Below, piece by piece: positions 15,037 to 31,299 of a stretch of DNA of 32,886 bases (the first letter of the stretch is position 1; every line of letters begins with the position of its first letter). A program made the translations under genes and the position numbers. This DNA is from a virus, in IMG/VR virus record IMGVR_UViG_3300030117_001489, positions 1 to 32,886 of that record; one strand, given 5' to 3'. Below the pieces are notes generated by a model that was not told where the DNA came from, did no database searches, and worked only from the letters and a program-made list of their open reading frames with translations.

Positions 15037-17301
15037 TTACCTTTTTGCCATCAACCCGCCACGATTTAATTTCTGTGTCAGTAAAAACATGGCACGTTTA
15101 GCATCAGTATATGTTTCAGGAAAGATACCTCTCATTGGTGGTCTATCAATACCATCTGCAAGTCCAAGGGCTGCCATTCTTTCGTATCTCTTTAGTTTAT
15201 CCTGATACTTAACACTAGCATTTATTCCACTTAAAAATTCTCTATCTCCTAATTCCGCTACAGGTGATCTAGCTTGTAAACCGTCCATAGCTTGTGCCGA
15301 TGATCCTCGTTTTCTCATGTTACGCACACTTTCTAATACTGAAACTATAGCTTTCATAGTTTCTTTTTTCTCTGACCCTTCAGGTAAATTAAAGGCTAAT
15401 GTTTCTAAATTACTTCTATCCTTTGCTGCTTCTGTTAGAAACGTATCGTAGGTTCCTCTCGCACCATACTGTTCAGTATACTGCCCAAGAGACTGCATGT
15501 CTTTGAAATACTGTCGTACTAATGAGTATTGTTTTGCTGGACTCAAATCTTCAAACATTTTTCCATCTGAAAATTTTGTAAACTCATCGCCTATTTCACC
15601 GCCCATTTCTGTTGCAGCTTTACCCTGAATAAAATCGCCAGTATATCTAACAGTGTTAGCAAGTTTTTGACCCTCTCTAACTCTATCTTTTAGGGGTAGC
15701 TTACCTATATTTTTACGTCTGTTTGTATCTCCCACTGAATAAAAGTCTCTTACTTTATCATCCAATACATCTGACAATCTATCAACACCTAATTGTTCTG
15801 GGTTCTTAGAAGCTATCTCTGCTTCTAGGTGTATACTTTTAGGTATACTAATACCTATAGCATCTTCTAGTTGTTTTCTTTCTCTTTCATTTATTGCTGC
15901 TAAATTTTCTTGCGTAAGTATATCACTTAATCTTGCGTCACCCTCATTAATTCTGTCATAATCTCTTGGATTTAAATTACGCACCATAGACTTGGGTAGT
16001 CTGCTTACCATAATATTGTCTAGTCTTCTGTCACCAAATGATTCCTTCAATGATACGAGTGGATCACGAGATAAAGATATAGCTTTTTCTTTTAGTTCGG
16101 CGTGTCTGCCTGACGCATCAGCACTTGTCAAGCCTTCTGCACCTGCAAAACCCATATCGTCATCACGATAGGGGAGGAACGCACCTTCTTCTGCTAATTC
16201 ATCTGCTCTAGATGTAGCCCTTTCTGCCATATCCCCCGGACTTGTGTAGAACGTGTCTGTTTTACTACGTGACATAGACTCTTGATCATCTAATATTCTT
16301 GTAAGGTCTTTTAAACTAATTTTATTATCATCAGAAACTTTAACAGTCATTTCATTTGTTTGTTTGCCGTCCTCATCAATAAATTTAATTCTTTGATAGT
16401 TCTGTGTTCTGGCTGGTGTTCGGGATGTGCCATCAAATGTTTTAGTATATTTTTCTCCTGCCATAATAGCTTCATTGCCTACATATTTTTTTCCATCCAT
16501 CATAAAAACAACAGGAGTTTGAATGGGTCCACCCCCACGAATATAATTAAACAAGTCATCAGCATCTACTAGATCGTTGTCTGGCCCCTCACCTAATAGT
16601 TCACTTACTTTTTTAAGCTGCTCATCACGTATAGATTCTCTATTTTCTTTTAGGTCATTTATAATCTGATTGTTTTCTTTTAGTTTTACATCTGTGTCAC
16701 CCAAGGTCGGCGCACCGTGATATACTCTAGGTGTAGGGCGTAAACTTTCTTGTATAAATTGTCTACGCTCACCAGAAGGTAGTCCTTTAGACAATCTAAT
16801 TAGTCTTTGTTTTCTTTCACTGTCCATGCTGGCAGGATCAGCCCTAAATGCAGCACGTGTTTGTTCTACAACATCACCTGCAGTTTCCTTAACACCTTCC
16901 TTGATAGCACGTTGCCCTAAGTCTGTGGCTATCTTAGCACCGGGCAAGAAACCTGCAGCAGTAAGCACACCAAACCCTGCACCAAGACCCATCTTCTTAA
17001 TGCTGCCTTCATCATACCCTTCCTCAAGAAGTTTATATGCAAACTGTGCATCCTCTGGTAATTCAGTCAGGGCTTTGGCAGAGCCTACAAATGGTGCTAT
17101 GTCTGTTGCTAGGTCAAGAGCCTGTGTTAAACCCTCTTTTGCTCCCTCAAAACCTCTGCCCTTAATAGTAATGGGTTCAAAGCGTGAGTCAGACGTTTCT
17201 GGTTCTATACCTTTTAATGTATCAGAACCATACATCATATCAGACACAGAAATATCTGACTCTTCAAGAAATTTGTTTTCTTGTATTTGAGATACTTTCA
17301 T
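15037..17301 (-). CDS. large internal virion / ejection-type protein with ART-like motifs
   Basis: This 754-residue protein is last in the minus-strand structural block, where HMO-2011-like and T7-like phages encode proteins stored in the capsid and ejected with DNA. Residues about 60-130 include Gly/Ala-rich hydrophobic stretches that could insert into membranes. The rest is mostly charged helix. RVYHGAP at 192-198 and TFYTSPGDMAERAT at 350-363, with EEG at 371-373, loosely recall the His, Tyr and Glu motifs of ADP-ribosyltransferase folds, although about 150 residues separate the first two. The start overlaps the upstream stop by one base (TAATG). Virion placement is by context; the enzymatic idea is speculative. 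Confidence 0.65.
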   Translation of the reverse strand: MKVSQIQENKFLEESDISVSDMMYGSDTLKGIEPETSDSRFEPITIKGRGFEGAKEGLTQALDLATDIAPFVGSAKALTELPEDAQFAYKLLEEGYDEGSIKKMGLGAGFGVLTAAGFLPGAKIATDLGQRAIKEGVKETAGDVVEQTRAAFRADPASMDSERKQRLIRLSKGLPSGERRQFIQESLRPTPRVYHGAPTLGDTDVKLKENNQIINDLKENRESIRDEQLKKVSELLGEGPDNDLVDADDLFNYIRGGGPIQTPVVFMMDGKKYVGNEAIMAGEKYTKTFDGTSRTPARTQNYQRIKFIDEDGKQTNEMTVKVSDDNKISLKDLTRILDDQESMSRSKTDTFYTSPGDMAERATSRADELAEEGAFLPYRDDDMGFAGAEGLTSADASGRHAELKEKAISLSRDPLVSLKESFGDRRLDNIMVSRLPKSMVRNLNPRDYDRINEGDARLSDILTQENLAAINERERKQLEDAIGISIPKSIHLEAEIASKNPEQLGVDRLSDVLDDKVRDFYSVGDTNRRKNIGKLPLKDRVREGQKLANTVRYTGDFIQGKAATEMGGEIGDEFTKFSDGKMFEDLSPAKQYSLVRQYFKDMQSLGQYTEQYGARGTYDTFLTEAAKDRSNLETLAFNLPEGSEKKETMKAIVSVLESVRNMRKRGSSAQAMDGLQARSPVAELGDREFLSGINASVKYQDKLKRYERMAALGLADGIDRPPMRGIFPETYTDAKRAMFLLTQKLNRGGLMAKR

Positions 17302-20300
17302 TACTGTACACCTCTCTTAGCAATAGGTAATGCTTCTCTCAAAGCCCATTGTAATGCATTAACTCTTCTGCCGCCTATGTCAATAATCATATCTTTATCT
17401 TCACCTACTTTTCTTCCTTCGTAGCCTTCGTAAGTTTGATATATTTCATTTATTCTTTCTTTTACTTTTTTAGATAAATTATCCCATTCAGCAATTTCTA
17501 CTCTGCTGTATGGCAAACCTCTACGTCTAGCCTGTGCCTGAATACGTAACTTAGCTACTTGTTCTGCTTTAGTTTTTATTGTACTGCCAGCCCTCTCAAG
17601 CATTTGTTGTTGAAAAGCGGGTGAAGAATTTTTGTATTCATCTGAATTTATTATTGCACGTAACTTTTCATCTAAATTATTAGGTGATCCTGCGCGAGAT
17701 AATTCTAGACGTGTATAAAAATCTATCTTGTCATCTTTATTTCTTTTATACATGTCCGTATATGACATGCCTAGTCTAGACATCTCTTTCATAACCCTAC
17801 TTTTTCGTATGGTTGTAGCACCAAAAAGTTGTTTTTCTATAGGATTAACAGCACGTAGTGTTCCTGATTTAAGTGGTGATACAGCAGGTGTATCGTAATC
17901 TTCAGTTGTAATCATATCTGCAGACCAAGAAGCTAATGGAAAGTCTGGTAAATTTCTTGTTGCTTTCTTATACATAAAATCAAAAAAGTTTTCATCTCCT
18001 GTAGATGTAGCTGGTATGTCTCTTGAGCGAGGATCAAACTGACCATAAACATCTTTGACCAGACCTGCAGGAATTGTCCATCTCCCTAAGAATCCACCAA
18101 GTCCTTCTGCTACAGTTTTAGTATTACCTGCTTTAATACCATCTTCAAACACTTTATCTAGCATAGCAATACCCATGCCTGTTCTAAAAGTAGAACCAAG
18201 AGTAGCCTGTAGTAACGCTTGTGAATAATATTTACCAAAAGATACAGGAAGTTTAGAAAAATTATCTGTTTGTGCGCGGTATATCATATCTGCAACTAAC
18301 ATGAATGGAGCCATAGGACCGTATATAGCACGGCCATCAATATAATCATCCCCACCCTTATGTATTTCATACCATTCTGCTTCATCACCTTGTTTTAAAC
18401 GCCATGCATAAGCTGTTGTCAACATAGCAGCACCTGCTAATTGTTTAGGTAAACGCTCTCTGGCTATAGAAGGATTAATAACTACATCTAACATGCCTAT
18501 GATTGGCATATGTTGATATTGAAATTTAAGTTGATTGGCTACAAATCTAGGAAAGGGCATAAACGCAGAAATAGCAAATGGATATTTATCATTAGCACGT
18601 ATCAATCCTCTAGCTGCACTGCTAAATATATCATCACCTTTCATGCCTGACTGATAAGTAAATTCGTATGCATCTTTTACAGCAGCCTGATAAATGTCTT
18701 CAGGAATATCTCCAAAAGAACCATCTCTAATTACATCATATAAATTAATACCTTTATCTGATAGTCTTCGTTTTAAAGAGGCAGCTAACACACCCTGTTT
18801 AAATATATTGTCAGATGCAGTATTTAATACTTGAACTTTTCTTCCTACTCTAGCTAGTGCAGTTTCAGTATCTGTAGCAGCCGATAAGTCAGCAGCATCA
18901 CGAAACAATCTTTTTGCTTCTTCTGGCATATTCTCTTCAAATAAAGTACGGATTACCCTACCCTCTTGTGGGTTCATCATGTACTTAGCTAAATCAAACG
19001 TACCATCAAACAAATTTCTTTTAGGTGCGTAGTAACCTTTTGTAGTTGAATCTAAAAATGATTGTATGGCATTGTCCATAGTTCTAGTGGCAGCATCTAC
19101 TCCTATTCTGAAACCACCACCAATGGTATTACGCATGGTTGTTGCTGGCTGAATAGTCATAAAACTAATACCAGCTTTATCAAAGTCTCTTATACCCTGC
19201 AATACTTTTGCTTTTAACGCAGCGTTACCAATAACGTCTGCAGAATCTTGGCGAGTTATAGACGATACACCTAACTGATTCATATCGTCTACTTCGTCTA
19301 ATAATTTATTTATTTGAGCAAACGCTTGAGCGTCTGTCTTTTTTAATTCTTTAGATAGTCTACCTTGTATACCCAATGTTCTTCCTGCTTCTGATACTTC
19401 TGCAAGATATACAAGTGAAAACTGATCCATATTTAAATTATGTTCACGTAAAATATTACTAATACCTAAATCTTCTAATTTACCTTCTTTCATTGCCGTA
19501 TACATTGCAGTGGTAATTCTATCACCCGGTTTAATATCTAGCCTACTTTGTACTTGTATGGCTGCTGCCATAATATTTTTAAATACGTCTGAACCCAGTG
19601 ATGCCTCTAATGTATCACTAGGATTTAAATCTTTCTTTAATCTTCTGCCTTCCATAACTCGTGCAGGATCAAGTTCATTTAATTTTTCTCTTACCTTTTT
19701 TACAGTTTCACTGTCTGCTGTTTCTAAAACTTCTTTTGATTTTCTTGCGGCAACTTGAGCCTTTTTTGCTGCTCCTATTTTAGCTGCTTCCATTAACTCA
19801 TTTGCAGATGAGGCACGACTTAATGCGCCCTTACCTGTAAGAGAGCCAAGAGCAGAAGCACCTCCACCTATTAACGCACCACCAATACCACTAGCTACAC
19901 CTGTAGTTACTGTTCGTCCACCCGTAAACTCTTCTTGTTGTCCTGTTGTTACACGAGTAAATTCTTGAGCCGCACCTTGACCTGTTCCAATCACAGCTTC
20001 AGGCACAGCCGCACGAACAGCAGACCTTCCTACATCACCAAGTATTTTACGTACACCTAGTTTAGCAGCTTGTGTACCTGCTACAGCAGCAGCCTTGCCC
20101 GTGCCACCTGAAATAAGACCTATGTAGGTAGAAGGTGCTGTTAACAAACCCATAGCATAGTCACCTAACATACGGCCTGTGTCTGTGTCATTTACTTTAT
20201 CATAGGCATCAATAAGTCTAGCAAAACCCTCTTTGCCTGAAGCATCTGCATTTTGTGCATATTCTAAATCACGAATAGTAGTTACTTCATTAACATCGTG

Positions 20301-20465
20301 ATAACGCATATGCTCCATAAAATTTTCGTACACTTCTTCGCGGGTCATCTCACCACTAAGACCACCACGGTTTTCTAAAAAAGTAACGGCATCTGCGATA
20401 AAATCATCATCAGATGCCAGTGTGTCTTTGTCGAGTTCATCGACTTCATTATATGCTTTGAACAT
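17301..20465 (-). CDS. very large internal virion protein (ejection protein candidate)
   Basis: At 1054 residues this is the second largest protein here. It lies in the part of the structural block that encodes internal core or ejection proteins in T7-like phages. It starts acidic (VDELDKDTLASDDDF), then has Gly/Ala-rich hydrophobic segments near residues 100-140 and 185-215 (GVASGIGGALIGGGASALG). Those could form membrane-spanning hairpins during DNA ejection. A long helical region and a C-terminal part with aromatic, membrane-like segments follow (AAMLTTAYAWRL). No lysozyme or transglycosylase motif was seen. The function is inferred from size, position and composition. The neighbouring genes are spaced by 0-9 bases. 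Confidence 0.65.
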   Translation of the reverse strand: MFKAYNEVDELDKDTLASDDDFIADAVTFLENRGGLSGEMTREEVYENFMEHMRYHDVNEVTTIRDLEYAQNADASGKEGFARLIDAYDKVNDTDTGRMLGDYAMGLLTAPSTYIGLISGGTGKAAAVAGTQAAKLGVRKILGDVGRSAVRAAVPEAVIGTGQGAAQEFTRVTTGQQEEFTGGRTVTTGVASGIGGALIGGGASALGSLTGKGALSRASSANELMEAAKIGAAKKAQVAARKSKEVLETADSETVKKVREKLNELDPARVMEGRRLKKDLNPSDTLEASLGSDVFKNIMAAAIQVQSRLDIKPGDRITTAMYTAMKEGKLEDLGISNILREHNLNMDQFSLVYLAEVSEAGRTLGIQGRLSKELKKTDAQAFAQINKLLDEVDDMNQLGVSSITRQDSADVIGNAALKAKVLQGIRDFDKAGISFMTIQPATTMRNTIGGGFRIGVDAATRTMDNAIQSFLDSTTKGYYAPKRNLFDGTFDLAKYMMNPQEGRVIRTLFEENMPEEAKRLFRDAADLSAATDTETALARVGRKVQVLNTASDNIFKQGVLAASLKRRLSDKGINLYDVIRDGSFGDIPEDIYQAAVKDAYEFTYQSGMKGDDIFSSAARGLIRANDKYPFAISAFMPFPRFVANQLKFQYQHMPIIGMLDVVINPSIARERLPKQLAGAAMLTTAYAWRLKQGDEAEWYEIHKGGDDYIDGRAIYGPMAPFMLVADMIYRAQTDNFSKLPVSFGKYYSQALLQATLGSTFRTGMGIAMLDKVFEDGIKAGNTKTVAEGLGGFLGRWTIPAGLVKDVYGQFDPRSRDIPATSTGDENFFDFMYKKATRNLPDFPLASWSADMITTEDYDTPAVSPLKSGTLRAVNPIEKQLFGATTIRKSRVMKEMSRLGMSYTDMYKRNKDDKIDFYTRLELSRAGSPNNLDEKLRAIINSDEYKNSSPAFQQQMLERAGSTIKTKAEQVAKLRIQAQARRRGLPYSRVEIAEWDNLSKKVKERINEIYQTYEGYEGRKVGEDKDMIIDIGGRRVNALQWALREALPIAKRGVQ

Positions 20466-20474
20466 TGTGTCCTC

Positions 20475-21716
20475 TTAGTTTTTTAAAGTGATGCCACTAC
20501 CTGAATCATCGTCTTGTCTGTACCCATTTGCAAATAAAATGTTATTAATAACACCATCAATACTTTGATCTGTTATTTTAAGACCTTCTTTTCTAGCTTT
20601 TTCTTTCATAACTTTACGAACTTGATCTGCCATAGCCATTGCTGTTGCTCTATCAGGGCGTTTACCTTGCACTTCTTTTAGTTCATCTTTTAGTGTAGAT
20701 TCTAATTGACTAATATTCAAACCTTCTAATTGAAGTGGTCCTCCTATAGTACCGTCACCTAAAGGTGGGGCAGGATTAACAGCGACTGATCTACCATCTG
20801 CTGTTTTAAGATTAGGAATAGATGCACTTAACATGGCTTCCATATCTCTTAGGTCTTGTGTAGTAAAAGGTCCATAGTCACCCTTTTCTGTTTTTATTTC
20901 TCTTTGTCGTATTGTTATGTTTCTTATTTCATTAGTGATAGCACTAGATATCATATTGTCATCATAGCTATAAAGAACATCTTCATCAAACATACCACCC
21001 CTACCTGCTTGTTTACTAGATTTTATTAAAGGACCAGCAAAAGCATTCAGTTTAATATCCATTTGATTAGCAGTAAAAGTATCTTTAGCTGCAGAGGCAG
21101 CAGCAGCAGGATCAAATAGTGTCACTGTACCTTTAACTCTTGAGTCTTGATATATAATATCGTCAGCAGCAAGAGCAGCTAACTCGTCCATGCTACTGCC
21201 TGTTGCTCTTGCTATAGCAGCCATTCTAGTTTCTCTTGCAGACCTAAGATTACCACCTAACGCTGAAGTTAAAGTTCCATCTTTTCTTCCTGTTACTTTT
21301 TCCATAGCTTCTAGTACAGGAGTTCCCTTTCCAAGTTCTCCCATTATAAGATCAAGAACTTCATCTTTAGTATAGTCTGGTACTTCTTGATTACCGTGAA
21401 GTGTAACTATTTCACCGGGTCTAACTTTATAATTTTCATATTTTCCTCTCATATTTTCAATATGATCTAGCACTTTTTGTCCAGAGCCTTCTTTCATAAT
21501 TACAGCAATTTGATTACTATCAAAGTAGTCATCTAGTTTATCATAGATGGCAGACTTATCGACTCTTTTTTGTCTACGTGCTGTTGCTTTAGGAAGACCA
21601 AGTTGAGTAAGAATTTTAATTTCATCATCAATTGTAGACAAAGCCTCTTCGCGTTCCTCTCTTAAAATTTGAGAGCCACGCTTTGCTGCACCACCTAAAA
21701 ATGCCATTCTCAACAT
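20475..21716 (-). CDS. internal virion / structural protein, 413 residues, unknown
   Basis: The product is soluble, mostly helical and charged, with an Ala-rich segment near the middle (FDPAAAASAAKD) and no membrane stretch. It falls between the small structural proteins and the two giant ejection-type proteins, so a virion role is likely. The start at 21716 has GAGGA 9 bases upstream. An in-frame Met three codons later (MAFLGG) is possible. I do not recognise a named family. Confidence 0.6.
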   Translation of the reverse strand: MLRMAFLGGAAKRGSQILREEREEALSTIDDEIKILTQLGLPKATARRQKRVDKSAIYDKLDDYFDSNQIAVIMKEGSGQKVLDHIENMRGKYENYKVRPGEIVTLHGNQEVPDYTKDEVLDLIMGELGKGTPVLEAMEKVTGRKDGTLTSALGGNLRSARETRMAAIARATGSSMDELAALAADDIIYQDSRVKGTVTLFDPAAAASAAKDTFTANQMDIKLNAFAGPLIKSSKQAGRGGMFDEDVLYSYDDNMISSAITNEIRNITIRQREIKTEKGDYGPFTTQDLRDMEAMLSASIPNLKTADGRSVAVNPAPPLGDGTIGGPLQLEGLNISQLESTLKDELKEVQGKRPDRATAMAMADQVRKVMKEKARKEGLKITDQSIDGVINNILFANGYRQDDDSGSGITLKN

Positions 21717-21720
21717 AACT

Positions 21721-22242
21721 TTATTTCCTCGCCATTAAGCCAGTAGGTTTTTCTTCTGGCATTTCATCAACTATATTTTCAGCAACTACAGTATCTTTAT
21801 CTTTTATTTTTAGACCTGAACCTTTTTTCTCTCGTAATTTATTTAGTTCTAATGCTACCTCTGCCTCAGAAGATGCATCTGGATTGATTTCTTCACCTTC
21901 TACCTTGTGCTTTACACCTGCCTTGGTAGCAATCTGACTAACCAACTCAGTCAATGCTGGTGCTATGATAACGCCTACGTCAACACTATGTACACCCTCC
22001 ATAACCCCTGTAAGCTGCACAGTATCTACAAGAGTATCTACAGGTATACCTAGTTCTAGTAAGTCTAGCATTTGATCTACCTGACGTTCTTCTGTCATAC
22101 GTTCTACATAATATGCTAGTGCTTTTTCTGGAGTAGCTATGGCTGCAGGTTGTTGCCACGGTCTGTCACCTAAAGGTGCAGTTAAACCCTGACCCGGAAT
22201 GGGTGCGTCAAGCATAGGTGCTGGTGCGTTTCTATCACGCAT
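21721..22242 (-). CDS. structural protein of marine podoviruses, 173 residues
   Basis: The ATG at 22242 is preferred to an open TTG two codons earlier, because AGGA sits about 8 bases before it. A Pro-rich N-terminus (NAPAPMLDAPIPGQG) is followed by a helical middle. It contains LLELGIPVDTLVDTVQLTG and MEGVHSVDVGVIIAPALTEL, a pattern I recall from pelagiphage and cyanophage virion proteins. The C-terminus is charged (Lys/Glu) and ends GLMARK. It overlaps the upstream small gene by 8 bases. It is probably an internal or portal-proximal virion component; the exact role is unknown. Confidence 0.6.
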   Translation of the reverse strand: MRDRNAPAPMLDAPIPGQGLTAPLGDRPWQQPAAIATPEKALAYYVERMTEERQVDQMLDLLELGIPVDTLVDTVQLTGVMEGVHSVDVGVIIAPALTELVSQIATKAGVKHKVEGEEINPDASSEAEVALELNKLREKKGSGLKIKDKDTVVAENIVDEMPEEKPTGLMARK

Positions 22243-22426
22243 TATCAAATTCCTTTTTAATACGTTGCTTTAACATAGAAGCAATATCCATGTTATCATC
22301 TATTTTACCAGCATCTGGCTTATTTAGCAAGCCTTTTGGTATCATAGGTGCAGGTTTAGCTTTAATTCTTGCTTCACGATATCGCACTGTTTGATTAGCT
22401 ATTCTTGTTGCGTTAGTGTATGCCAT
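22235..22426 (-). CDS. 63-residue basic protein in the structural block
   Basis: The gene is squeezed between the repeat-rich virion protein and a structural protein, with no free space on either side, which supports its being real. The product is basic (ARIKAKPAPMIPKG) with a short C-terminal helix (ASMLKQRIKKEF). No family is recognised. It may be a small virion component or assembly factor. Confidence 0.55.
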   Translation of the reverse strand: MAYTNATRIANQTVRYREARIKAKPAPMIPKGLLNKPDAGKIDDNMDIASMLKQRIKKEFDNA

Positions 22427-24814
22427 TTATCCTATCCCCGGAAATCCACCAGTTAGACCAAACTTAACCAAGTCCATTGCAAATCCACCTAACCCTGCTG
22501 CTGCTTCATAGTCACCCTTAATTTTTTGTGTGTCTCTATCTGCATCAGCGTTGATAGTAGCGACAGCAATATTCATTTGCCTGTCTTGTTCATTCTCTGC
22601 TGTAGTCCATGCCCACTCCATTGTATCAGAGTAGTATCCCCACAAATTATTATACGCTGCATCAGACATACCTAGTATGGCTTGTGCATTTATCTCATTA
22701 GCACGATTAATTGCAGCCGTGTCTGCTGTAGCTATCTGTCTACGCCACTGTGCATTTGACTGTGCCAGCACGGTTTGGTTTTGTGCATTAAACTGATCAC
22801 GTTGATTATTCATTTCTGCGTTAAAACGATTAACTGTATTAGCCTGACCTGCATTAAACTGTGCCTGTGCGTTTGCTTGTGTTGCATTAAACTGGCTAGT
22901 TTGACTGGCGAGATTAGAAAAGAATTGATCCACTTGATTTTGACTAGTAGCATTAAACTGTGCAGCAGCATTGGTTGCAGCTTGATCTGTAAACATAGAC
23001 TGTGTACGCTGCTGTGCTTTAAACAATTCTGTCTGCTGTTGATTAGATAGATTAGCCATATCCATTTGTAGGAATGACTGTGCATTATTCACTGCAGCCT
23101 GTTGTCTGTTATTAAGATTGGCCGCATCCATCTGTGCTACTGCTGATGCTTCTGCCATAACCATAGCCTGTCTATTAGACAAGTTGTTTATGTTCATTGT
23201 ATTAGCAGCACGAGAGTTTTCTAGTTGCACCTGCTGTTCAGCAGTAAAGTTCATATTAGCAATATCAGAAATACGTGCTGCATTTTGTACACGTGTTTGG
23301 AATGCTTGATCAAACTCTTGACCCATAAACGTAGCACGTTGTTGTGCCGCAAGCATGGCACGTGCCTGTCTATTTGATAGGTTTTGTGTTTCAAACTGTG
23401 CCTGTACTTGAGCATCTGCAGAAGCTATTGGTAGTGCAGACTCCATAGCTGCCTGAACCATAGCTTGACCAGCGATAGAAGACGCACCAAGCCCCCTCTG
23501 TGCCATTTGTGCCTGTACCCCCCGCAATGCACCTGCAGCCCATGCAGGAGGATTAGAGGCGTCAAAGTTAGCAGTTAGCTGTGCAAGTTGTCCTTGCACT
23601 GTAGCTTGTGTAGAAGGACTTGCTGTTGCTGCTTGTACTTGTTCAGTAAATGTAGCAGCAGTTTGTGCATCAGCGGCAGCACCAGATATTAATTCACCTG
23701 CTTGAATGTTACGTTGTACAGGGTTATTAATAAGTGTGGCATTACCTTGTGCTTCAGTTAAACTACCCACAGAAGATGCTGTTTGCTGTGCTGCAGTTAC
23801 TTGTGCGCGAGGATCAGCAGGATTAATTACTGCTGCTTGCACTGTGCTAAGAGCCTGTTCAATTGCAGGTGCAGCTTGTGCAGCATTCATGGTGTTAGCT
23901 GCTTTTTCTGCCTCTGGTGCAGACTGTGTTGTTGTAGCCATTGCAGTAGGCACATTAATTTGACCAGTTACCTGACCAGTTCTAGGATCAATATACTGAC
24001 CTGCTTCTGACGGTGTTACTGCAGCAGTGGTAACAGCACCTGTAGGGAGTGCTGGTTGATACATCCGTCTTAGTGATTCTTGACCAATGCCTGTAGCACC
24101 GGGGGCTGCAGTACCCGGTACACCTGTAGGTGGTTCAGGTGTGGGTGCTGGTTGTGCTGTAGGTGGTTGACCTGTAAATGGAATACGACTACCCGGCCCA
24201 TCTGCCATTATGCGTGGGTCAATAGAAGGGCCACGTGCAAGTGCTGCATTGATGGCAGCTTGGTCTTCTGGTGTTTTCATAGCACGGTTAGCATTTGCAG
24301 CCACGGCTTGTTCATATGTGTAATTATATGCTGGTGGAGTATTTATTGTTTCACCTGTTAGCAAGTTAACCGCAGCACCGAAACCACCTAATGGCACGGG
24401 CAGCTTTTGTGTTGTAGGTGGTCTTTCAATAGGCTGACCAGCAGGTGGCCCGGTATTAATTATTGACGGACCATCAAGCACAGCGGGTTGACCACGAGTG
24501 GGTAATAAACCACCACCGGGTTGCGCTGTTTCACCCGGAAATAAACCCGGACCGCCGATAGGCATTGATGTAACAGTACCACTAGGCGGTATGTATCTAC
24601 CGCTGCTTATATTAGGTATAGCACCACCTGTTTGCATTCTTACAACACCACCCTTTGCCATCTCCATAGCGGCATTAGTAAACTGTTTCATACGTGCTTG
24701 ACGTGCAGGGTCTTGTTCTATAAAGTCTTGGAACTGGCCCATGTCACCAGTGTAGCCCATTGACTGTGCAATCTTGTTCATCGCTGTAGGTTTAAATGCT
24801 CTAAAGACTGCCAT
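22427..24814 (-). CDS. repeat-rich Ala/Gln/Asn virion protein with long hendecad coiled coil
   Basis: This 795-residue protein has three parts. Residues 1-70 contain a helical head and a Gly-rich segment (AKGGVVRMQTGGAI) seen in marine podovirus virion proteins. Residues 70-300 are Pro/Gly/Thr rich and likely disordered. Residues 478-719 consist of 22 consecutive 11-residue units, most starting with Asn (NLSNRQA or NAQ forms) and many ending with Phe. That is a hendecad pattern expected of an extended, slightly right-handed coiled coil. A C-terminal hydrophobic Gly-rich end (GGFAMDLVKFGLTGG) could touch membrane. Its place among ejection protein genes suggests a DNA-ejection or internal tube component. 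This is not a match to a named family. Confidence 0.7.
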   Translation of the reverse strand: MAVFRAFKPTAMNKIAQSMGYTGDMGQFQDFIEQDPARQARMKQFTNAAMEMAKGGVVRMQTGGAIPNISSGRYIPPSGTVTSMPIGGPGLFPGETAQPGGGLLPTRGQPAVLDGPSIINTGPPAGQPIERPPTTQKLPVPLGGFGAAVNLLTGETINTPPAYNYTYEQAVAANANRAMKTPEDQAAINAALARGPSIDPRIMADGPGSRIPFTGQPPTAQPAPTPEPPTGVPGTAAPGATGIGQESLRRMYQPALPTGAVTTAAVTPSEAGQYIDPRTGQVTGQINVPTAMATTTQSAPEAEKAANTMNAAQAAPAIEQALSTVQAAVINPADPRAQVTAAQQTASSVGSLTEAQGNATLINNPVQRNIQAGELISGAAADAQTAATFTEQVQAATASPSTQATVQGQLAQLTANFDASNPPAWAAGALRGVQAQMAQRGLGASSIAGQAMVQAAMESALPIASADAQVQAQFETQNLSNRQARAMLAAQQRATFMGQEFDQAFQTRVQNAARISDIANMNFTAEQQVQLENSRAANTMNINNLSNRQAMVMAEASAVAQMDAANLNNRQQAAVNNAQSFLQMDMANLSNQQQTELFKAQQRTQSMFTDQAATNAAAQFNATSQNQVDQFFSNLASQTSQFNATQANAQAQFNAGQANTVNRFNAEMNNQRDQFNAQNQTVLAQSNAQWRRQIATADTAAINRANEINAQAILGMSDAAYNNLWGYYSDTMEWAWTTAENEQDRQMNIAVATINADADRDTQKIKGDYEAAAGLGGFAMDLVKFGLTGGFPGIG
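22658..23383 (-). repeat. 33-bp tandem coding repeat (22 hendecads) inside the virion protein
   Basis: Codons 478-719 of the minus-strand gene repeat with an 11-codon period. Where residues are most alike the DNA also repeats. The plus-strand string GCATTAAACTG recurs near 22785, 22852, 22885 and 22951, at multiples of 33 bases. Asn occupies the first position in 15 of the 22 units. The array is in frame and coding. Confidence 0.85.
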
Positions 24815-26159: not shown

Positions 26160-26488
26160 CACGATGCGTTATCTCCAACATTACCTACAGTATGATATCC
26201 TGTATCAAATCTACCATTTGAGTTTTTAACATCATCAAAAACCAAACATCTCATACTGGATGTGCTTCTGGTGTTAACACTAGATATTGCCGCTTGATCG
26301 TGACCCGGACCAAGAGAGTTGCCAAATATTGCGAAATCGTCATTGTCCATATTATTTGAAAAATTAAAGGTTGTATCACCGCCTTGATTATCAGTAGTGC
26401 TGCTCACATTAAAATTGTCTTGTAAAGTAGCATTTGCGGCTGACGCAAAAGTAGTCACACCGTGATTTAAAAAACTAAAACTACTCAT
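26159..26488 (-). CDS. hypothetical 109-residue Ser/Asn-rich protein behind the tail fibre
   Basis: The gene starts on the last base of the tail-fibre stop codon (TAATG). The product is rich in Ser, Asn, Thr and Asp with few Lys, typical of beta-rich exported or virion surface proteins. Examples are SSTTDNQGGDTTFNFSNN and GRFDTGYHTVGN. No family is recognised. Position and composition suggest a fibre-tip or tail accessory protein, which is an inference. Confidence 0.58.
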   Translation of the reverse strand: MSSFSFLNHGVTTFASAANATLQDNFNVSSTTDNQGGDTTFNFSNNMDNDDFAIFGNSLGPGHDQAAISSVNTRSTSSMRCLVFDDVKNSNGRFDTGYHTVGNVGDNAS

Positions 26489-29400
26489 TACTTACTCTCC
26501 ATCGCCGCAATACGGCTTTCCAACTCTTCAATCTTTTTATGTGCATCTTGCAAAGCTGACACAAGAACAGGTGTAATACGTCCATAGTCCATGCCCATTG
26601 TCTTATTCTCATCCTCACTAATGTTAACACTTTCAGGTACAATTTTTTGCATTTCTTGTGCAATAAAACCTACGTTTCGTGGACCGTCTGGATCAGACTT
26701 CCAATTATAGCTGACAGGATTCATCTGCATTAGTTTATCAGTGGCTTTTAACGGCTCTATGTTTTCTTTAAGACGTATATCAGATGTTGTATTATATGTT
26801 GTTCCACTAGTTGAAACAGAGATAGAACCTTCAGCGTTTGCATCCTCATAAAATTCAATGACATTCCCCTCGTCTCCATTTCTGCGAATAGACAACGGAA
26901 CAGCGTTGGTTCTTGTCATGTTGACTTCGCCGCTGCTTTTTAGTGCAACACCATCAGTGCCAAAACTGTCGGATGTTTTACCAACAAGAAAAGTACCTGA
27001 CCCATCAAATTCACCTACTTGTGCATTTCCAGTGCCAAAAATAAAATGACCACTTTCACAATTGTTAAGAACAGCGGTAGTATTGATAAGAGCAAACTGT
27101 GCGCCACGATTTGACCCAGCAGCAGGGTCAGAAAGTTTAATTACTGCTGCTTCACCATCATTCATATGAAAATATCTAGAACCAGTAGGAATAGACACAC
27201 CAGCTATAGCCGCATCAAGAGTAGGACTAGCATGACCAATTCCAATATTTCCAGTTGAGCCTTCCAAGAAAAATGCGTTTATGTTTTCACCAGACTCAAC
27301 ACGGAAGTCTACACTTTGAGCGTCTTGGTTAAAAGTAGTTTCTACTTCGTTCATTCTTAAACGTGAACGAGAAGAGCCGCCCATAAGAGTAGTAATATCT
27401 ATTTGACCATCTTCAGAACCATTACTTGCATCTCGTAATAAACATCCGATTTGCGCTGCGGTATTTACCTCGCCAGCATCATCATCAAATTTAAATCGTA
27501 TAAAACCAATCTCATCATCGTCAGCAGGACTACCAGAATCACGAATCAAATCTAAGATTGGGCCGTTGTTTGCATCTGCGTCTGTGGACTTGAGTGTAAG
27601 CTGTACGTCATTTCCAGCAGTGGTAATCTGCATAGTACCATCAATATCAACAAATCCATCATCTCTTACAGAAAGTTTTGATGAAAGGCTGGAGTTATAA
27701 AGGACAAGAATAGAACTGCTTGAGCCATCCGTTGCACCCGCTACAGTCAACGCCCTTGCAGAGTTGATTGCGTCAACCCCAATAGAAGCATGGCCTGTGA
27801 TGGAAGCTGTTCCTCCCGCAACAATGTTGCCTGTTGAAGTCACACTATCTACATACGCATCTTTAAATCTTGCACCTGTTGTACCTAAGTCTACGTCACT
27901 ATCTGTCTGTGGTCCGAACACACCGTCTGATACAAAGACTTGTTCAGCGTTGGCTGCATAGAAGTGAATTTCGTCTGCAGTTTCAAAGTCAATTTTGGTC
28001 TGGTCATCTTCACCAATCTTCAGGTCTGTAGCCAAGATGGAGGTGATGCCTGTTTGTGCAGCGTCAACTGTAAACGTAAGATCAAATGGATCACCATCAC
28101 TGCCCGTAGACGTGTCAGTAAAGTTAGTGGTTATTCCTGAACCGATAAACTTTAGTTCTTTGGCGTTGTCAATTGTAACTTCTGTGCCATCATCATCTTC
28201 TATAAAGAAGCTGGTAAAGCTACCTGCATTAGCTTCTACAAATGCCTTAACAGACTGCTGCGTAGGAATAAGAGTAGCACTGTCAGATGACATGTCGTCT
28301 TCGTCAACAAATGCTGTAACTGTAATAGAACCATCAGACAAGCTACCGAATGTCATAGTGCCAGTGGTTGTTATAGCACTTGATCCGTTATTAATAGCAC
28401 CAAATCCGCTGGTAATGCTACCACTGTTTAACGCACCTGTTGTAACAATGTTAGAGTCTCCAGCCGCTGGTGCTGCTGATATGTCAGACAATACCTCTGA
28501 AGCAGAACGCCCCTCAATCGCTGTGCCATCCACACGCAGGAAATCATTATCTGCAACACCACTTGTAAACTTAGGCACGTTGTTGTTTGAGATACCTGTA
28601 TCAAGGGTGGCAGTAGCTGTAATGGCTGTGCCATCTAACGTGATTGCATCAGCTTCCAGAGTGCCATCAAAATCTCCGTCTACTGCGTCTATGTTACCTT
28701 TAAATATAGTTGATGTTATAGTGCCTGTGCTTGGATTGTAGGTAAGATTACCATCCATCTCTAGGCCAACATTACCTGTGCTAGAAGTAGCATCCTCTAC
28801 AAAAGTAATAAGGTTTTCTTCGTTTGTGCTTTCGTTGTCTGTTACTAAAACGTGGGCAGAGTTAGTTGCATCAGTGACGGTCACACCTGCAATAACAGTA
28901 TTTAGTGCTGTGCCATTTACAGTGATCGCATCAGCCTCAAGTGTACCATCAATATCGGCATCGCCAGATATATCCAAACTTGTAGCATCAACTTCACCAG
29001 CCACAGTAAGAACACCACTAGCTACGGTCATCAAGTCTGTGTCGCCCGTGTGTCCAATGGTTGATCCATTGATAATTACATTATCTACAGTTAAAGTTGT
29101 CAACGTGCCGACAGACGTTAAGTTTGGCATCGCTGTAATTTCGTCATCAAAATAGGCAGCTAAGTCAGTAACCGCCACCTGCTTCATAGTTCCAGCATCA
29201 TTGAATACAACACGGTCTGCGTCAGCTACAGTTGTAGAACTGGCAGTTGTGTCACCATCAAGAATATTTAATTCTGTTGTAGTAACCGTAGCACCATCAA
29301 GTATTTCTAGTTCTGTCTCTGATATATCAGCACTACCAATAGTAAGTGTGCCAGATATATCTACGTTACCGTTAATGTCAATGGTAGTGGCAGCTATCTG

Positions 29401-29793
29401 TATTTCTGTGTCAGCTACAAGATCAAGCTGTCCATCTGTGCTTGAGTTAATATAAATGGCTGTGTCACGGAACTGTAGTTTCTCTGTGCTGGCTATAAGT
29501 ATGTCATCCGAAAACTCAAAGTAGTCTTCGTCTTCCATCCACTTTAATTCACCGTCACTAGTTTCACCATCAAAGGTAATAGTAATATCTGTGCCAGCAG
29601 TACCCGCACCAAAGGTTAGTGTATTGCCAAGCAGTTTAGTAATAGGTCCACCTTCAGCAGCAGTGCCATCATGCGTATGCCCTGTGCTGGCAGCAAACGC
29701 CGCAAGAAGCTGATTAAACTCGTTGTTGGTGTGTGCGGCAGTAATAACATCTCCGTCAGTGTAGGAGGACTGCCTAGTATACGTGTCACCCAT
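26488..29793 (-). CDS. tail fibre with C-terminal S74 intramolecular chaperone
   Basis: This is the largest product in the window (1101 residues) and the likely host-recognition fibre. An N-terminal head (about 1-60) should join it to the tail. A long shaft of beta-rich, Thr/Asp/Gly-rich repeats follows, such as TELEILDG (160-167) and TELNILDG (173-180), and two GTLEADAIT units. The last 98 residues are a peptidase S74 chaperone of the endosialidase type. It starts SDIRLKENI with Ser1004 and Lys1009, continues VGFIAQEMQKIVPE, and ends in a coiled coil (KKIEELESRIAAMES). Known members trimerise the fibre and then cut themselves off before the Ser. The gene abuts the tail tube B gene with no gap. 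Confidence 0.88.
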   Translation of the reverse strand: MGDTYTRQSSYTDGDVITAAHTNNEFNQLLAAFAASTGHTHDGTAAEGGPITKLLGNTLTFGAGTAGTDITITFDGETSDGELKWMEDEDYFEFSDDILIASTEKLQFRDTAIYINSSTDGQLDLVADTEIQIAATTIDINGNVDISGTLTIGSADISETELEILDGATVTTTELNILDGDTTASSTTVADADRVVFNDAGTMKQVAVTDLAAYFDDEITAMPNLTSVGTLTTLTVDNVIINGSTIGHTGDTDLMTVASGVLTVAGEVDATSLDISGDADIDGTLEADAITVNGTALNTVIAGVTVTDATNSAHVLVTDNESTNEENLITFVEDATSSTGNVGLEMDGNLTYNPSTGTITSTIFKGNIDAVDGDFDGTLEADAITLDGTAITATATLDTGISNNNVPKFTSGVADNDFLRVDGTAIEGRSASEVLSDISAAPAAGDSNIVTTGALNSGSITSGFGAINNGSSAITTTGTMTFGSLSDGSITVTAFVDEDDMSSDSATLIPTQQSVKAFVEANAGSFTSFFIEDDDGTEVTIDNAKELKFIGSGITTNFTDTSTGSDGDPFDLTFTVDAAQTGITSILATDLKIGEDDQTKIDFETADEIHFYAANAEQVFVSDGVFGPQTDSDVDLGTTGARFKDAYVDSVTSTGNIVAGGTASITGHASIGVDAINSARALTVAGATDGSSSSILVLYNSSLSSKLSVRDDGFVDIDGTMQITTAGNDVQLTLKSTDADANNGPILDLIRDSGSPADDDEIGFIRFKFDDDAGEVNTAAQIGCLLRDASNGSEDGQIDITTLMGGSSRSRLRMNEVETTFNQDAQSVDFRVESGENINAFFLEGSTGNIGIGHASPTLDAAIAGVSIPTGSRYFHMNDGEAAVIKLSDPAAGSNRGAQFALINTTAVLNNCESGHFIFGTGNAQVGEFDGSGTFLVGKTSDSFGTDGVALKSSGEVNMTRTNAVPLSIRRNGDEGNVIEFYEDANAEGSISVSTSGTTYNTTSDIRLKENIEPLKATDKLMQMNPVSYNWKSDPDGPRNVGFIAQEMQKIVPESVNISEDENKTMGMDYGRITPVLVSALQDAHKKIEELESRIAAMESK

Positions 29794-31299
29794 TTATCTT
29801 CTCTCTCCTAGCTGGTATTCTAATTGAAATCCTTTTAATGAATACGGTGCTGTTTCTGCACTATCTTCTACTCTTAGTGCTATAGCAAACCCAGAACCCT
29901 CTACAGATTGTCTTACTAGAGGTTGTGATGCGCCGCCATATATAGGTGTTCCGTACACAGATGTGCCATATATGGCAACAACATCTTCAGAGTCTAGCGG
30001 ATAAGCTGCAGGTCTTGACGAGTTTGCCGCCTCGTAGTCATATCTAACAAGCAAGTTAGAGTTAATAGCAGCTTCAGGTTTATAATTTATAATAACCCTT
30101 TGCATATGTTTTCTAATGCCGGGGTCAGCTAAAGTTAGGTCAGGACTTCTGTATCTACCAAATATTACAGTGCCGTCAAAAGTATTGCCCGATTCTTGTC
30201 TATACACATAGCCCGTTTCGTAAGCACCGTGTAAAACAATTACATCACCAGCAGAAACAAAGTGATCTGTGCTTGCTGGTTTTATTCCTTGCAGTTCTGA
30301 AAACTCAAACCTTTGACCTTTAAGAACACAGATAACACCTTTTGTTACAGTTTCAGCAGTTCCAGACTTTGTAAAAAATATACGATACTGTGTTTTATCT
30401 GGAATAACTACGGAGTCAAATTCTGATGCGCTACTAATGTTATCGTTAAATATAGATTGTACGTTAGAACTTATAGTTCCCAACTCCACGTCACCAATCC
30501 TTGCTGTACCTGCAATTGTACGCAACCCGTCAGGGCCAAGAAAGATAAGATCACCAGCAAATTCCTGAATAGTGTCACCATTTATACAACCAATGTCACG
30601 TGTAACAGGAACTATAACAAAATTAGAACTTGATGTACCACTTAGTTTAAATATACGAGTTTCACAAAAGATAAATAAATCTTCACGGAAAACTTTAAGT
30701 CCTGTTATAGTGTCGTCTACATTAATAGTACCAGCACCAGAACCGCTGCTAAAGGCATCTTCATCTGCTGGCTGGCTAAATACTACAGTCTGTGGTATGC
30801 TAGATTTACCAGCATAGAACATATGATTTTTAAATGCTGCTACAAATTTAGCACCAGCTACATCACTTTCACTTACGTCTGTTGCAGCTAAAGAACTATT
30901 AAATACTGTAGGTGCATTTGCACCATCTACTACTATTATTTTATCTGTGCCATCAAAGTTAAAGCGTTCAAAGTTATATTTACCTGCACTAGTTCTGCCG
31001 CTATCTCTACTTGTCCAAGAAGATCCACCCGGAGTTGCACTAAATATACTTGTTCCTCTAGCTGCTAAAACATTGCTACCAAACGTAGCCACCATAAGAA
31101 TTTTTTCAGAAGATGATGAGGTGTGTGGTACTACTGCAGATACGTACTTAGAGAACCCATTAATTCTTCTATACCCACCTTCAATGTCAGGCTCAAAGTT
31201 ACGTAGTTCTAATGCTTCACCCGGTTGCATCATAAACGTAGAACGATTTAGTATCAAGCCGCCTTCGCAGTTAAAAGCACTAGGTTGTGTTGTTGACAT
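29794..31299 (-). CDS. tail tube / hub protein, T7 tubular B or P22 gp10-like
   Basis: This 501-residue protein is beta-rich throughout, with repeated blade-like segments (FNFDGTDKIIVVDGANAPTVF, DLIFLGPDGLRTI). It lies directly between the tail adaptor and the fibre, where T7-like and P22-like phages encode the distal tail tube or hub. The opening (CEGGLILNRSTFMMQPGEAL, then LRNFEPDIEGGYRRI) matches the start of many marine podovirus tail tube proteins. In the virion it would form the lower tail to which fibres bind. Its start overlaps the adaptor stop by one base. Confidence 0.78.
   Translation of the reverse strand: MSTTQPSAFNCEGGLILNRSTFMMQPGEALELRNFEPDIEGGYRRINGFSKYVSAVVPHTSSSSEKILMVATFGSNVLAARGTSIFSATPGGSSWTSRDSGRTSAGKYNFERFNFDGTDKIIVVDGANAPTVFNSSLAATDVSESDVAGAKFVAAFKNHMFYAGKSSIPQTVVFSQPADEDAFSSGSGAGTINVDDTITGLKVFREDLFIFCETRIFKLSGTSSSNFVIVPVTRDIGCINGDTIQEFAGDLIFLGPDGLRTIAGTARIGDVELGTISSNVQSIFNDNISSASEFDSVVIPDKTQYRIFFTKSGTAETVTKGVICVLKGQRFEFSELQGIKPASTDHFVSAGDVIVLHGAYETGYVYRQESGNTFDGTVIFGRYRSPDLTLADPGIRKHMQRVIINYKPEAAINSNLLVRYDYEAANSSRPAAYPLDSEDVVAIYGTSVYGTPIYGGASQPLVRQSVEGSGFAIALRVEDSAETAPYSLKGFQLEYQLGERR

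Follow-up and report, generated by a model that had tools for sequence, protein, structure and literature searches.

The array gene and its neighbourhood

The window, by which is meant the whole 32,886-base IMG/VR virus record analysed here, represents an HMO-2011-like podovirus. Its central feature is a gene for a 795-aa protein carrying an array of 11-residue rows (Table 1), for which the closest named homologue is gene 25 of Puniceispirillum phage HMO-2011 (67% identity over 79%). Homologues were found in 27 phage records in total, including Roseobacter CRP, Pelagibacter HTVC, Sinorhizobium phiM6 and Rhizobium RHph phages as well as Vibrio CHOED, Aeromonas MQM1 and Pseudoalteromonas Slicky01, and all are annotated as hypothetical proteins or lack a credible name. 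The window array protein matched no family in Pfam or PHROGs, a profile search of PDB sequences matched no solved structure, and Foldseek with a low-confidence model gave no fold match. Two PDB sequence matches, one with a portal barrel (9pdp) at E 7.6 and one with KMP-11 at E 2.1, were at chance level and were dropped.

HMO-2011-type phages are described as ranking with the most abundant ocean viral groups (PMC6918029). The imaged isolates are short-tailed podophages whose heads measure ~70 nm (PMC8528129); in Aeromonas phage MQM1, the head measures 70.6 nm and the tail 9.2 nm (PMC10410586). A prophage origin was considered for relatives found in genome contigs and rejected, as all such matches were on contigs of metagenome-assembled genomes, which are probably phage contigs binned with them. 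Fifteen loci (L264-L278) come from metagenome-assembled genomes that bear the names Maricaulis, Euryarchaeota, Flavobacteriales and Neomarinimicrobiota, among others. Since contigs alike in name and length sit in two differently named bins, the loci appear to be contamination from binning.

Table 1. Positions in the window of the array protein, its parts and the neighbouring genes
Feature	Position	Strand	Basis or remark
1054-aa protein, N-terminal domain homologous to internal virion protein D (T7 gp16-like)	17301..20465	-	tblastn, hhalign
413-aa protein, in the place of the relatives' 500-aa protein (T7 gp15 position)	20475..21716	-	gene order only
P175, 175-aa conserved partner gene	21721..22248	-	co-distribution with array protein
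795-aa array protein (HMO-2011 gp25 family)	22427..24814	-	ORF and homologue of HMO-2011 phage1322_25
C-terminal tail, residues 768-795, Gly-rich, mildly hydrophobic (GLGGFAMDLVKFGLTGGFPGIG)	22430..22513	-	hydropathy
Conserved C-terminal flank, residues 690-745 (WRRQIATADT...W.WT.AENE)	22580..22747	-	right length anchor
Hendecad array, residues 478-719, 22 rows of 11	22658..23383	-	autocorrelation and register in relatives
11-residue Phe half (QFNAxQxN...), residues 610-694	22733..22987	-	constant in relatives, F every 11 residues
22-residue-unit half (NLSNxQQ...), residues 478-609	22988..23383	-	half gaining or losing 110-residue blocks in relatives
Conserved N-terminal flank, residues 422-469 (PPAWAAGAxR...RGLGASS...ALPIAxADAQ)	23408..23551	-	left length anchor
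Tail fibre with C-terminal Peptidase_S74 chaperone, upstream neighbour	26488..29793	-	PF13884 3.7e-18; PHROG tail fibre 4.9e-30

The gene order in relatives is tail fibres, array protein, in some cases small genes, then genes for proteins of ~175 aa, 400-600 aa (larger in CRP-738) and 800-1200 aa, the last of which ends the late module in the relatives examined. The same order is found in phages of SAR116, Roseobacter, Pelagibacter, Vibrio, Aeromonas, Rhizobium and Sinorhizobium. Homologues of P175 are present in 202 of 229 loci, covering nearly every array-length class, and in all 10 records searched for it; conversely, each of the 24 phage records with P175 carries the array protein too. The 413-aa form has close relatives in 14 loci, and the 500-aa family gave no sequence match to LUZ100 gp46.

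The 1054-aa protein is related to LUZ100_gp47, annotated as internal virion protein D, similar to T7 gp16, by tblastn (E 5e-6) and by hhalign (98.6%, E 7.7e-16 over 184 N-terminal columns). As judged by these alignments, it is a divergent relative of the T7 gp16-like internal virion protein D, and the homology provides the best sequence evidence for ejection proteins in the cassette. The HMO-2011 homologue is annotated only as hypothetical. The original prediction had placed the array protein among ejection genes, and this location is borne out by the homology of the downstream 1054-aa protein at its N-terminus. In LUZ100, the gp14-, gp15- and gp16-like genes are consecutive; the array protein compared with LUZ100 gp45 and gp46 (gp14- and gp15-like) gave hhalign probabilities of 0.2 and 0.1, respectively, in comparisons that used single templates and were weakly powered. 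A fold search with a model of the 1054-aa protein (pTM 0.56) returned no informative match, a result that excludes nothing.

Two further genes were recorded. A 754-aa gene (15037-17301, minus strand) closes the late module and has close relatives in only 6 of 229 loci; its product is hydrophobic and Gly-rich around residue 104, and an RVYHG motif in it may point to a domain of the ADP-ribosyltransferase type. A 501-aa protein (29794-31299, minus strand) matches PHROG 5107 'amidase' (2.6e-78) and also tail and internal-virion PHROGs; given its position among tail genes, the lysis label may be wrong.

Repeat unit, register and length of the array

Residues 478-719 of the window protein can be written as 22 gapless 11-residue rows that map exactly to the nucleotides given in Table 1, with Asn at row position 1 in 15 of the 22 rows and N-A at the start of nine, all as predicted originally. 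Phe had been predicted to end seven rows from 610 to 675. Six consecutive rows (610-665) do so, placing Phe at 620, 631, 642, 653, 664 and 675, and the seventh is the row at 588, the row at 676 ending in Ser. Asn and Gln together make up 31% of array residues. Against 2,000 shuffles, the self-identity of the array is 0.195 (z 4.4) at lag 11 and 0.241 (z 6.5) at lag 22, with z of 4.6 at lag 33 and 5.4 at lag 44, other lags being at background save lag 55 (z 2.0). The 11-residue period is therefore not due to chance. The array had been called a near-perfect repeat of 11 residues, which is true of its register and not of its residues, and the unit, although the period of 11 is real, is better described as 22 residues. 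Lag 22 is the strongest, and in relatives the unit is plainly 22 residues long, N-L-[SNTD]-N-x-Q-Q-x-x-L-x-N-A-x(9), with S, N, T or D at position 3 in 97% of cases and Gly at position 21. The final 80-90 residues of the array differ in having an 11-residue Phe unit, QFNAxQxNxxx.

A sample of 278 loci was fetched with several queries, and array length was taken as the distance from an upstream motif (PIA...DA) to a downstream motif (N.QWRR or ANAKILADVSTANT). Divided by 11, this distance leaves a remainder of 8 in each of the 226 distinct gapless arrays. Sixteen values occur, between 151 and 778 residues (151, 162, 173, 184, 217, 228, 239, 250, 316, 338, 426, 448, 536, 558, 668 and 778), so that the array spans up to ~70 hendecads in the family. 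Among cultured phages, the length is 173 in CHOED, 184 in MQM1, 228 in HMO-2011 and 316 in HTVC104P. In L251, a relative outside this set, one residue is inserted in the right flank. To guard against a slip of register by a repeat-aware HMM, the count was repeated with the two plain motifs and no HMM, and 159 of 160 arrays agreed modulo 11, the exception being one residue longer. Thus, the off-register insertions of other lengths that, if common, would have spoken against the original prediction were not common in the homologues by either count, and the Asn register is conserved among them.

The lengths are quantised further. Arrays of at least 217 residues fall on a ladder of 228+110k (k = 0 to 5, 178 arrays) and a second of 316+110k (k = 0 to 2, 29 arrays), and only three (217, 239 and 250) lie off them. 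On a tree computed from the flanks together with the C-terminal part that stays constant, with moderate branch support, at least 38 length changes were counted. Among arrays of at least 217 residues, ~26 of ~30 changes were exact multiples of 110, whereas a free choice among multiples of 22 would give one in five; whole-array exchange between phages would make these events less independent. Adjacent 330-nt blocks in the 668 and 778 classes are 67-87% identical over the whole block, and in pairs such as L127/L123 (668 to 778 residues, 84% identical) one block has been gained or lost. Of 39 arrays in the 338 class, 29 match themselves best, at the DNA level, at an offset of 66 residues, yet no length change of 66 residues was seen. 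Simple best-match recombination is hence disfavoured as the cause of the 110-residue step, which is not merely the easiest site for recombination; exchange of whole arrays between phages is a possible cause.

Outside the array, the C-terminal tail includes the most hydrophobic stretch of the 795-aa ORF (maximum 19-residue hydropathy 1.06), and GxxxGxxx[GAST] occurs in 75 of 188 tails of relatives. Nearly all relatives have a short Gly-rich end and no receptor-binding or chaperone domain. Pfam Peptidase_S74 was detected at the C-terminus of 1 of 66 aligned A1 members and is absent from the window protein, and the CRP-738 homologue has an S74-like C-terminus, as judged by motif. In 15 relatives (L037, L009, L051 and 12 others), a C-terminal extension, CWVAREVYG...FAKxIxxKPxxKxxxR, follows the Gly-rich tail. 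The N-terminal half of L058 (9998-11641), L069 and L147 includes the module GQDHMLAYITPEEGELLKxxGGSGKPxPMGIPSF, which recurs in a protein with a LysM domain from Roseobacter phage CRP-901 and has a weak match in a tape measure protein (E 0.02). Swapped-in N-terminal domains were also seen in long-array relatives, namely DUF4214 (L139, L160) and a helix-turn-helix at its cut-off (L153).

Helical structure and candidate roles

Charge covariation, computed within three length classes aligned without gaps, is negative at lag 3 (-7.6), lag 4 (-6.1) and lag 7 (-2.6; summed values, sd 1.2 over 129 lags), and in every one of the three classes by itself the two lowest values fall at lags 3 and 4. Proline is absent from 54,029 array residues and makes up 5.9% of the region before the array. 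Because charges covary at i+3, i+4 and i+7 and proline is absent, the array is alpha-helical. AlphaFold2 (monomer, 66 sequences) also gave helix throughout, with low confidence (mean pLDDT 63.6, pTM 0.24); pLDDT is 40-60 for residues 500-620 and ~80 in the Phe half, the best-predicted helix. These three lines of evidence bear out the long helix of the original prediction. The residues at positions 3 and 21 of the 22-residue unit led to a possible break of the helix at every unit boundary being considered. Covariation across the junctions of 22-residue units is strong at i+3 and absent at i+4, with few pairs available, and the total absence of proline argues for a helix continuous across these boundaries. 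At 1.5 Å per residue, the 228-residue span of the window would measure ~340 Å and the longest (778) ~1,160 Å.

Two components, at 131 and 163 degrees, appear in the hydrophobicity spectrum, the second of them strong. On an 11/3 wheel, the second harmonic accounts for 22-45% of the variance of the hydrophobic pattern (p 0.10-0.36 by permutation), and neither a unifacial nor a bifacial pattern is significant. A bifacial pattern as proof of a barrel, promising at first, was dropped for this reason. By the same measure, the hendecads of phiX174 H are no clearer.

From the register, the helix and the flanking P175 and gp16-type genes, a role of the array protein in DNA ejection is likely. With moderate confidence, it is proposed to be an internal ejection-type virion protein that forms a helical rod or tube in DNA delivery, and the length-quantised array fits a modular structure of this kind. 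The C-terminal half would be one continuous alpha-helix, 11 residues in 3 turns, built of 22-residue units rich in Asn, Gln and Ala, and its straight register would allow several copies to pack side by side into a long polar rod or tube. This rod or tube would be carried in the head; a helix of at least 270 Å cannot be housed in the tail, because the tails of relatives are short (9 nm in MQM1). For the longest members, a single straight rod inside the capsid is impossible, because a 778-residue helix of ~1,160 Å exceeds the head. The array protein would then leave through the short tail together with P175 and the gp16-like protein and become part of a conduit guiding DNA across the Gram-negative envelope. 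Its mode of action would resemble that of phiX174 H, with its hendecad tube, or of Sf6 gp12, with its helical stem. By analogy, an Asn-lined tube like that of phiX174 H is plausible, and an Asn-lined lumen in the array-protein tube itself is possible, though it is put forward with reservation. Against a rod or tube for ejection, the hydrophobic pattern favours no tube or oligomer significantly. The original prediction took the array protein for a virion protein by assumption, and no proteomics of HMO-2011-type virions was found in the open-access literature; the coiled coil and the Asn-lined polar channel of that prediction are likewise candidate features.

Units would be gained and lost by in-register duplication and deletion, with 110 residues as the preferred step, and as these events stay in register, length changes would leave the packing of the helices intact. 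A step of 110 residues equals 10 hendecads, ~165 Å or 30 helical turns. More tentatively, it might be a structural superperiod, such that 10 hendecads return each helix to an equivalent position in the oligomer and the phage tunes the length of a DNA-delivery tube, in blocks, to the host envelope. Equivalence could arise from a superhelical rotation matching the symmetry or from one docking module per block. If true, the array would be a modular, length-tunable ejection tube of a type not described before.

A ruler or internal scaffold, that is, a tape-measure-like rod with 11-residue graduations in the head, neck or an extended tail complex and not a conduit, is unlikely. Tape measure proteins are the best known 11-residue arrays varying by whole units (PMC3271669), and in TP901-1 helical periodicity outweighs side chains (PMC5099701). 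The half of the array with Phe every 11 residues resembles their [FW]-x(10) pattern, and the N-terminal module of some relatives matches the phage LysM protein and, weakly, the tape measure protein, as given above. However, these are short-tailed phages with no long tail to measure, genome size does not track array length in the few genomes available for comparison, and neither the window protein nor the A1 members belong to a tape measure family in Pfam or PHROGs.

The position of the array gene directly downstream of the tail fibre genes would also suit an external appendage, in which the array, as a trimeric coiled coil, forms the shaft in a tail fibre or at the tail tip. Peptidase_S74, a trimeric fibre chaperone domain, ends one aligned relative, and the CRP-738 homologue is S74-like; such domains in a few relatives hint at three-fold symmetry and keep the fibre reading alive. 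At ~3.626 residues per turn, 110 residues would by calculation be about one third of a superhelical turn, which would keep a three-fold register. Nevertheless, a receptor-binding or chaperone domain is missing from nearly all relatives, and the array gene stays with P175 and the gp16-like ejection gene and does not follow the variable fibres. An Asn-, Gln- and Ala-rich array in which strongly hydrophobic positions are few would also make a poor trimer core, and a role of this kind is thus quite improbable.

Repeats of 11 residues of the apolipoprotein or alpha-synuclein type lie flat on membranes. Another candidate is an amphipathic 11/3 helix of this type with membrane activity, which would coat the inner membrane at entry without self-association, and the Gly-rich tail is mildly hydrophobic. 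The array nonetheless has no clear single hydrophobic face, and coating needs no exact quantisation of length over hundreds of residues, making this role very improbable. Finally, a beta-solenoid of 22-residue coils with an Asn ladder, as might be read from the 22-residue units, the conserved Asn and the strong 163-degree component, is largely refuted by the charge covariation at i+3, i+4 and i+7 with nothing negative at lag 22 in the three length classes; an 11/3 helix, at 98.2 degrees, also has its second harmonic at 163.6 degrees, and steps of 11 (151, 162, 173 and 184) would mean half coils.

Comparison with known phage systems

Arrays of 11-residue units are already known from tape measure proteins (PMC3271669, PMC5099701) and from phiX174 H. 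An unannotated podoviral family of up to ~70 hendecads, with a register kept through dozens of length changes and a quantum of 110 residues, appears to be new; no earlier description was found in the open-access literature, to which the search was confined. The family constitutes a natural experiment in which one helix occurs in 16 lengths and 38 or more changes of length have left its register intact. The question of what determines length and register in the DNA-delivery structures of podoviruses is testable in the cultured phages HMO-2011, CRP-1, HTVC104P, phiM6, MQM1 and CHOED.

With the T7 ejectosome (gp14, gp15 and gp16), the locus shares its gene order and the gp16-like 1054-aa neighbour, whereas the array protein has no match in the LUZ100 proteins like gp14 or gp15. 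Sf6 gp12 is a decameric channel with a coiled-coil stem (PMC4755594). Like Sf6 gp12 and P22 gp20, the array protein comes from a short-tailed phage, lies in an ejection-gene neighbourhood and has a predicted coiled-coil segment; the coiled coil of Sf6 gp12 is set apart, by description, in having ~70 residues and no reported variation in steps of 11.

Tape measure proteins resemble the array protein in that their arrays gain or lose complete 11-residue units and keep the reading register (PMC3271669), and one half of the array likewise has Phe every 11 residues. Unlike them, the array protein is podoviral, serves phages without a long tail and matches no tape measure family, and its main unit is 22 residues, marked by Asn and Gln, with steps of 110 residues.

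The phiX174 H protein forms a decameric tube from three hendecads and eleven heptads (PDB 4JPP), and 18 of its 23 inward side chains are Asn, Gln or Arg (PMC7354561). No sequence relation between it and the array protein was found in the profile search of PDB sequences. The two are alike in having hendecads in a long helix rich in Gln and Asn (with Arg too in H), in a helix long enough to span the envelope, and, for the array protein as proposed here, in DNA delivery through a Gram-negative envelope. In contrast to H, the array is 2 to 6 times longer, purely hendecad and variable in copy number. Two observations made separately, the hendecad tube in phiX174 and the 11-residue units in tape measure proteins, are brought together by the array family in phages of a third kind.
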